Assembly (NCBI GenBank): GCA_025463925.1
Contig: JAODBK010000018.1
Span: 1-41,264, forward strand
Source of the DNA: Acidimicrobiales bacterium
GTDB taxonomy: Bacteria > Actinomycetota > Acidimicrobiia > Acidimicrobiales > AC-14
Reading direction: 5' to 3'
Length of the DNA stretch: 41,264 nucleotides
Shown here piece after piece: positions 9,042 to 41,264 of this stretch. Below the pieces are notes generated by a model, which worked only from the letters and a program-made list of their open reading frames with translations, was not told the DNA's origin and made no database searches. Positions within the stretch are counted from its first letter, which is position 1. The number at the start of each line of letters is the position of its first letter. A program made the translations under genes and the position numbers.

Positions 9042-9073
9042 AGTGTAGCGAACAGATGTTCGATCGGTAGAGT
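9042..9073. promoter_or_regulatory. SOS (LexA) box between two divergent -10 elements
   Basis: The palindrome CGAACAGATGTTCG at 9049-9062 matches the actinobacterial LexA consensus CGAAC-N4-GTTCG. On the plus strand TAGAGT (9068-9073) lies 8 nt before the GTG start of the HAD gene. On the minus strand TACACT (9047-9042) faces the radical SAM gene. A repressor on this site would occlude both promoters at once. Confidence 0.82.
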
Positions 9074-40492: not shown

Positions 40493-40735
40493 CTACTGGA
40501 GGTAGCCCTCCACCTCGCCGGCGGGTCGAACGGTGGCCGAGTCGGGATCCTCGCCGGAGGCCCGGCGGGCCCGGCGCTGCCGGAGCAGGTCCCAGCACTG
40601 GTCGAGGCCGACCTCGATGTCGCGGAGCCGCGTGATCTCGGCGTCGCTCAGGCCCTTGCCGTCCGCCTGCGACTCGAGCCGGTGCTCCTCGGCGACGAGC
40701 TCGTCGATGCGGCCGATGACGTCTGCATCATCCAC
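40493..40735 (-). CDS. DUF2630 family small protein
   Basis: 80 aa. VIGRIDELVAEEHRLESQADGKGLSDAEITRLRDIEVGLDQCWDLLRQRRARRASGEDPD (quoted in parts; start VDDADVIGRIDEL, core CWDLLRQRRARR) fits the small helical DUF2630 family common in actinobacteria, ending with the usual VEGYLQ-type tail. GTG at 40735 is 8 nt after TAGGTT (40749-40744). It diverges from the ImuA'-like gene. Function unknown. Confidence 0.85.
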   Translation of the reverse strand: MDDADVIGRIDELVAEEHRLESQADGKGLSDAEITRLRDIEVGLDQCWDLLRQRRARRASGEDPDSATVRPAGEVEGYLQ

Positions 40736-40743
40736 GGTCGCGA

Positions 40744-40749
40744 ACCTAT
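40744..40749 (-). promoter_or_regulatory. -10 element of the DUF2630 gene
   Basis: TAGGTT (minus strand, 40749 to 40744) lies 8 nt before the GTG start, a leaderless position. Confidence 0.45.
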
Positions 40750-40786
40750 CGCCCGCGGGCCGGGTCGCCCGCCCGCCCCTTGCACA

Positions 40787-40809
40787 TCGAACACACGTTC
40801 GATACGGTC
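40787..40809 (+). promoter_or_regulatory. SOS (LexA) box and -10 of the ImuA'-like gene
   Basis: ATCGAACACACGTTCGAT (40787-40804) is a perfect 18-bp palindrome matching the actinobacterial LexA box TCGAAC-N4-GTTCGA. TACGGT (40804-40809) begins on its last base and lies 6 nt before the ATG, so a bound repressor would cover the promoter and the message would be leaderless. Confidence 0.92.
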
Positions 40810-40815
40810 GATCCA

Positions 40816-41264
40816 TGGCGGTGGCCTGGCCTGTCGACGACTCGCCGTCCCGGGAGGAACTGCGGGAGATCGCGGGCCGAGGCCAAGCGGTGGTGCCGTC
40901 GAACGGGCGGCTGCTGCCGGTGCTGCCCGCCCTCGCCGGCATCCTGCCCGACGGCGGGCTGCGGCGGGGGTCGGTCGTGTCGGTGGCCGGGGCGACGTCG
41001 CTGGCCCTCGCCCTGCTCGCCGGTCCGTCGGCCGCCGGCTCGTGGTGCGCCGCGGTGGGGCTGTCGTCGCTGGGGCTGTCGTCGCTGGGGCTGGTCGCGG
41101 CGGCCGAGCTCGGGGTCGCCCTCGAGCGCTTCCCGTTGGTCGCGGCCCCGTCGTCGGGAAGCAGCGTCGGGTGGGCCACCGTCGTCGCCGCGGTGCTCGA
41201 CGCCATGGACGTCGTCTTGGCCTGGCCGCCGGCCCACGTGCGAGCGGCCGACGCGCGCCGCCTG
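40816..41264 (+). CDS. imuA': ImuA'-like SOS mutagenesis protein, N-terminal part (cut by window end)
   Basis: 149 complete codons to the window edge, still open. The sequence begins MAVAWPVDDSPSREELREIAG and continues RLLPVLPALAGILPDGGLRRGSVVSVAGATSLALALLAG, quoted in parts; the LPDGGLRRGSVVSV segment is the RecA-like start seen in actinobacterial ImuA' (Rv3395c type) proteins. ImuA' acts with ImuB and DnaE2 in damage-induced mutagenesis, with LexA control, which fits the perfect SOS box directly upstream. A 15-bp tandem repeat at 41056-41085 doubles LGLSS (GLSSLGLSSLG). Symbol given from motif and regulation, without a full-length sequence. Confidence 0.82.
41056..41085 (+). repeat. 15-bp tandem repeat in the ImuA'-like gene
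   Basis: TGGGGCTGTCGTCGC is present twice in a row and a third partial copy starts at 41086. In-frame, it adds Leu-Gly-Leu-Ser-Ser. Confidence 0.8.

Follow-up and report, generated by a model that had tools for sequence, protein, structure and literature searches.

A probable LexA-controlled imuA'-imuB-dnaE2 operon with a predicted leaderless start in an Acidimicrobiales bacterium

We analyzed a 41,264-nt stretch of DNA from an Acidimicrobiales bacterium (the window), which is the whole of contig C2 in a source assembly of 119 contigs and 4.08 Mb with an estimated contamination of 3%; the end of the window is also the end of the contig. That end cuts through a gene which the original prediction had called ImuA'-like, an identification borne out by the NCBIfam model NF058630, to which the encoded fragment scored 90.1 bits over profile positions 2–99 of 153, above the curated cut-off of 65, and a wrong gene identity was rejected on this evidence. 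The fragment scored only 21.5 bits against the ImuA model NF033429 (cut-off 150), had no meaningful match in Pfam, and was 59–68% identical in alignments to full-length relatives. A 15-bp tandem duplication at approximately 41058–41095 of imuA' adds five residues (GLSSL) that are absent from the aligned relatives. Upstream of imuA' are a divergently oriented gene for a DUF2630 protein and a glutamate dehydrogenase-like gene (Table 1).

Table 1. Features at the imuA' end of contig C2, with a further LexA-type box of the same contig.
Feature	Position	Strand	Remarks
Divergent neighbor, DUF2630 protein	40493..40738	-	PF10944, 109.8 bits (cut-off 27)
Candidate -35 element, TTGCAC	40780..40785	+	weak
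LexA (SOS) box, TCGAACACACGTTCGA	40787..40802	.	candidate operator; sequence match
-10 hexamer, TACGGT	40803..40808	+	
imuA' (ImuA'-type mutasome accessory gene), 5' 150 codons	40815..41264	+	NF058630; cut by contig end
Second LexA-type box, GCGAACAGATGTTCGA	9048-9063		one mismatch

The candidate operator before imuA', TCGAACACACGTTCGA, fits the LexA motif tCGAAC-N4-GNNCGa described for Streptomyces venezuelae (part of PMC9380542). It had been proposed to be a perfect 18-bp palindrome. Extended by one pair, the box does span 18 bp, beginning at 40786 and ending at 40803, and its 7+7 arms (ATCGAAC and GTTCGAT) pair perfectly; however, its 4-bp center, ACAC, is not self-complementary, and the palindrome is therefore an interrupted one. 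The remaining details of the proposed layout were found as described: the T at 40803 is both the last base of the extended box and the first of TACGGT, and six nucleotides (40809–40814) separate that hexamer from the imuA' ATG (40815–40817). TTGCAC precedes TACGGT by 17 nt, and the space between these two promoter elements is taken up by the LexA box. No promoter at imuA' appeared in the output of a generic sigma-70 scan because TTGCAC has only TTG in common with TTGACA. The position of the box within the spacer suggests that repression of imuA' would be direct, and the same sequence features point to LexA binding, induction of imuA' by DNA damage and leaderless transcription. The divergent DUF2630 gene is probably outside the SOS unit; a -10-like hexamer of its own, TAGGTT, sits on the divergent strand between its start and the LexA box, and divergent control of this gene was left out of the interpretation because that hexamer falls outside the box.

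Exact matches to the 12-letter box motif numbered six in the 4.08-Mb assembly, compared to approximately 0.07 expected from base composition and none for a reversed control pattern, and a chance box before imuA' was accordingly rejected. Weaker box matches alone say little, as six sites with at most two mismatches were counted in the 41,264-nt window versus a mean of 2.29 in shuffled sequences, with one of 100 shuffles reaching six.

The arrangement was then compared across the class Acidimicrobiia, where 119 of 198 genomes had an ImuA' match at 1e-15 (109 of them above the cut-off). We examined 111 of the 119 and seven more of the same family, 118 altogether, three of which lacked room upstream, leaving 115; the eight genomes left out had weak or short matches (G147, G185, G099, G065, G116, G027, G075 and G197). 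With no more than one mismatch to CGAAC-N4-GTTCG allowed, a core box was found upstream of imuA' in 111 of the 115 genomes, including the source genome, versus 5 of 115 for control windows inside the coding region, although these and the following conservation counts are not independent because genomes of one class are related. An in-frame ATG or GTG was present 10–15 nt past the box at 81 of the 111 boxed loci (displaced six-base windows gave 4–14 of 111), a spacing that fits a leaderless SOS promoter. A hexamer of the form xANNNT lay 6–7 nt before the start at 67 of these 81 leaderless-geometry loci, compared to 36 of 945 internal ATG/GTG codons, and TTG occurred 16–19 nt before the -10 in 40 of the 81 (displaced controls, 2–6). 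Named relatives were taken from the best 80 of at least 581 DnaE2 matches; among the matches listed, 36 named loci had an ImuA' match and room upstream, 33 with the box and 24 with the leaderless geometry, and two more lacked room. Many of the nearest named loci in that listing bear Acidimicrobiales or Acidimicrobiia labels, the basis on which the class was taken to be Acidimicrobiia. A search of open-licence literature by title returned no work on such a promoter layout, which is weak evidence of absence.

These comparisons bear on the possibility that imuA' is SOS-controlled and not leaderless, with transcription starting elsewhere or a later start codon (GTG at 40821 or beyond) being used behind a short leader. 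The GTG at 40821 is in frame and 18 nt past the box, and the class does hold departures from the leaderless geometry, which is absent from 30 of the 111 boxed loci, as is xANNNT at 6–7 nt from 14 of the 81. The 30 exceptions include short-leader genomes and one family, f5, that has a -10-like hexamer ahead of the box, and an SD-like motif was found in 7 of the 28 other loci with a later start. That motif was detected at only 2 of the 81 leaderless-geometry loci, however, and the prevalence of both the 10–15 nt start spacing and the xANNNT register makes a leadered imuA' unlikely in our view. The leaderless start of the original prediction is thus supported by a promoter geometry conserved among relatives. 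In family f5 (for example, L183, L187 and L199) the box is located just past the -10-like hexamer, and a T-rich stretch, which reads TTTTTC in many members, comes after it; the f5 operator would therefore cover the transcript start, and f5 may represent a second promoter geometry for imuA'.

It had also been predicted that the module continues past 41264, with a search for imuB and dnaE2 proposed and their absence from the continuation named as counting against the idea. Both genes were found, as predicted, on contig C82 of the same genome, which ends at 40966 inside a frame continuing ImuA' and encodes, in order and on the same strand, the C-terminus of ImuA', then ImuB and DnaE2. The ImuA' part on C82 scored 28.4 bits against NF058630 (profile 115–153), which alone is below the cut-off. 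The two contigs have no overlapping bases; judging from relatives, approximately 2–3 ImuA' residues are missing between the end of C2 and the resumption on C82, equivalent to a gap of approximately 7 bp (two bases already being on C82, and assuming no indels). We infer that C2 and C82 adjoin within imuA'. It is very improbable that they represent two loci, an isolated truncated imuA' on C2 and another cassette on C82, as the lack of overlap and the fragmented assembly with its estimated contamination might allow, since the two ImuA' parts are complementary in profile coverage, both continue past the end of their contig in the same orientation with so few residues missing, and the genome search gave no further ImuA' match above the cut-off.

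On C82, the imuB ATG overlaps the imuA' stop (TGATG) and the dnaE2 GTG begins 1 nt past the imuB stop. DnaE2 was identified by NF004225 (1493.4 bits, cut-off 939). ImuB has a Y-family core (PF00817, 42.1 bits, cut-off 23.2); the NCBIfam scan of this protein produced no ImuB model, only DNA polymerase IV models that were all below their cut-offs. Alignment to the genome's own DinB (on C9) placed LVVWCPD opposite ILHVDMN and GMCAI opposite LDEAF, that is, ImuB lacks the catalytic Asp and Asp-Glu at the aligned places, and ImuB has been described as catalytically dead (part of PMC6511836). A clamp-type motif at residue 343, QLGFWG, is a candidate clamp-binding site; its mycobacterial equivalent is given as QLPLWG (part of PMC10421592).

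Considered together, the end of C2 very probably holds the first gene, with its operator and promoter, of a leaderless translesion-mutagenesis operon, imuA'-imuB-dnaE2, under LexA control. In undamaged cells, LexA bound in the spacer between the -35 and -10 elements would keep RNA polymerase off; upon DNA damage, RecA filaments would stimulate LexA self-cleavage and the promoter would open, yielding a transcript that begins at or next to the imuA' ATG. Because imuB overlaps the imuA' stop and dnaE2 follows imuB by 1 nt, one operator would govern all three genes. By analogy with the mycobacterial homologs, DnaE2 would be the error-prone polymerase, ImuB an inactive Y-family adapter on the sliding clamp and ImuA' a RecA-like partner.

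Whether dnaE2 has an operator of its own appears to depend on its distance from imuB. Upstream sequence was sufficient at 102 of 125 loci with a DnaE2 match, the other 23 having too little. A box was present no more than 200 nt from the estimated start of dnaE2 at 69 of 74 loci where dnaE2 is apart from imuB, and at 3 of 28 where the estimated imuB-dnaE2 gap does not exceed 30 nt, with no box in any of 121 control windows; a gap limit of 150 nt gave 68 of 73 and 4 of 29, respectively. Fifteen of the 74 loci in the former group showed no imuB on the dnaE2 strand; of the 59 where it was seen, 55 had the box. The three abutting exceptions (L198, L201 and L220) have a box approximately 75–100 nt past the imuB end, and their true dnaE2 start may therefore be further on. 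On a quick FastTree phylogeny of DnaE2 the imuB-dnaE2 arrangement changes 11 times; across nine independent contrasts, the box changes in the opposite direction in an average of six and in the same direction in none (median p 0.03, range 0.016–0.06). The source genome belongs to the abutting class and its dnaE2 has no box of its own, whereas in G001 (L050), a relative from its own family, dnaE2 begins 79 nt past imuB and has its own box. We lean, by a modest margin, towards a scenario in which the mutasome promoter of Acidimicrobiia is nearly fixed (box in the spacer, leaderless, ~35 bp) and fusion of imuB to dnaE2 brought the loss of the second operator. The pattern suggests a rule of one LexA box per mutasome transcription unit, with a box being lost upon unit fusion. 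This would be an advance in detail only, because published work already states that the loci of a split imuABC cassette may each have an SOS box and that a separately located cassette gene tends to have one (part of PMC3901139).

In the source genome a two-mismatch box-like site, TCGAAGCCACGTACGA, ends 5 nt before the dnaE2 GTG. It is a possible relic of a dnaE2 operator, a reading that we do not claim because intact dnaE2 boxes are positioned in another register and the bases of this site also code for the last part of ImuB.

Cassettes that are fused, or almost so, were also observed in Dactylosporangium (L113), a Micromonosporaceae MAG (L130) and Frankia (L152). No LexA box was found by the same measure before imuA' or dnaE2 of these three, which are perhaps under another regulator. 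The sequence GTCRGTG, which we take to be a PafBC-type motif, was not seen by eye in 40740–40815 of the window. That the box before imuA' matches by chance and a different damage regulator, for instance PafBC, drives the operon, for which the boxless L113, L130 and L152 and the joint control of the mycobacterial split cassette by LexA/RecA and PafBC (part of PMC10421592) might be cited, is hardly credible given an exact box, the number expected in the genome, and a register shared with relatives. LexA control of the operon is the reading retained here, and if the one-box rule is true there would be a single switch for the whole mutasome wherever imuB and dnaE2 are fused.

Damage-induced mutagenesis by ImuA', ImuB and DnaE2 has been studied chiefly in mycobacteria, in which the cassette is split over two loci. 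The mycobacterial mutasome (Rv3395c-Rv3394c and Rv3370c) comprises the same three protein families as the cassette described here, and common to both are a LexA box before imuA' and an ImuB that lacks catalytic residues and has a clamp-type motif. In Mycobacterium tuberculosis, imuC/dnaE2 is apart from imuA'-imuB (parts of PMC3901139 and of PMC10421592, which calls the arrangement "split"), whereas here dnaE2 is boxless and 1 nt past imuB. The imuA-imuB-imuC cassettes of Proteobacteria such as Pseudomonas putida form one LexA-controlled unit (part of PMC3901139), as proposed for the present operon, although they begin with ImuA and the first gene here is of the ImuA' type. A precedent for the promoter is M. 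tuberculosis lexA, a LexA-regulated gene whose transcript was mapped to begin at the translation start (part of PMC2897130); that gene is leaderless by experiment, whereas imuA' is predicted to be so from promoter geometry. The find is a probable unsplit imuA'-imuB-dnaE2 operon under one predicted operator, a system of known kind in a little-studied actinobacterial class, and its compact promoter offers a simple model for SOS repression of a leaderless gene.

Boxes elsewhere in the genome outline a putative wider SOS regulon. SOS boxes have been reported at recA, lexA, ruvC, dnaE2 and uvrA in S. venezuelae, where the relevant passages of PMC9380542 group dnaE2 with dinP and mention no imuA' cassette; the source genome likewise has boxes before recA, lexA, ruvC and uvrA. 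Its lexA, on contig C99 (TIGR00498, 227.8 bits, cut-off 110.95), is preceded within approximately 130 bp (L263, 1354–1479) by four LexA-box-like sites with 0, 1, 1 and 1 core mismatches, suggesting layered autoregulation. An ORF on C99 that was read by eye as recA, with a weak NF058630 cross-match, has a one-mismatch box upstream. Upstream boxes with one mismatch or none were likewise found at several DUF222/HNH genes, a gene with an exonuclease domain, ruvC and uvrA, all as read by eye. One-mismatch sites numbered 55 in the genome, many of which are chance matches as the control gave 9.

Apart from the box before imuA', the six exact boxes comprise four before DUF222/HNH-type frames and one, on C23, without a clear gene. 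The SOS promoters before the DUF222/HNH-type genes are nearly identical (C16:621, C53:19481, C88:296 and C92:12931 of the source genome, G000; L007, L009–L011 and L039–L042), those of L041 and L042 having the layout TTGACAGG-box-TAGGGT, and a further such promoter at C68:606 (L064) has a box with one mismatch. These genes appear to constitute a repeated, LexA-linked HNH family, of which Pfam confirms one DUF222/HNH copy.

The second LexA-type box of C2 lies between a minus-strand radical SAM gene that is Rv2578c-like, its 396.1 bits falling slightly short of the cut-off of 430, and a plus-strand gene for a HAD-type hydrolase; an ATG 12 nt past this box is not in the frame of the radical SAM gene. 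On the minus strand of C44 (L062, 1577–1592), a box overlaps the likely start of the ruvC-like gene, with TATTGT just upstream, so that the candidate operator would cover the start codon instead of preceding it.
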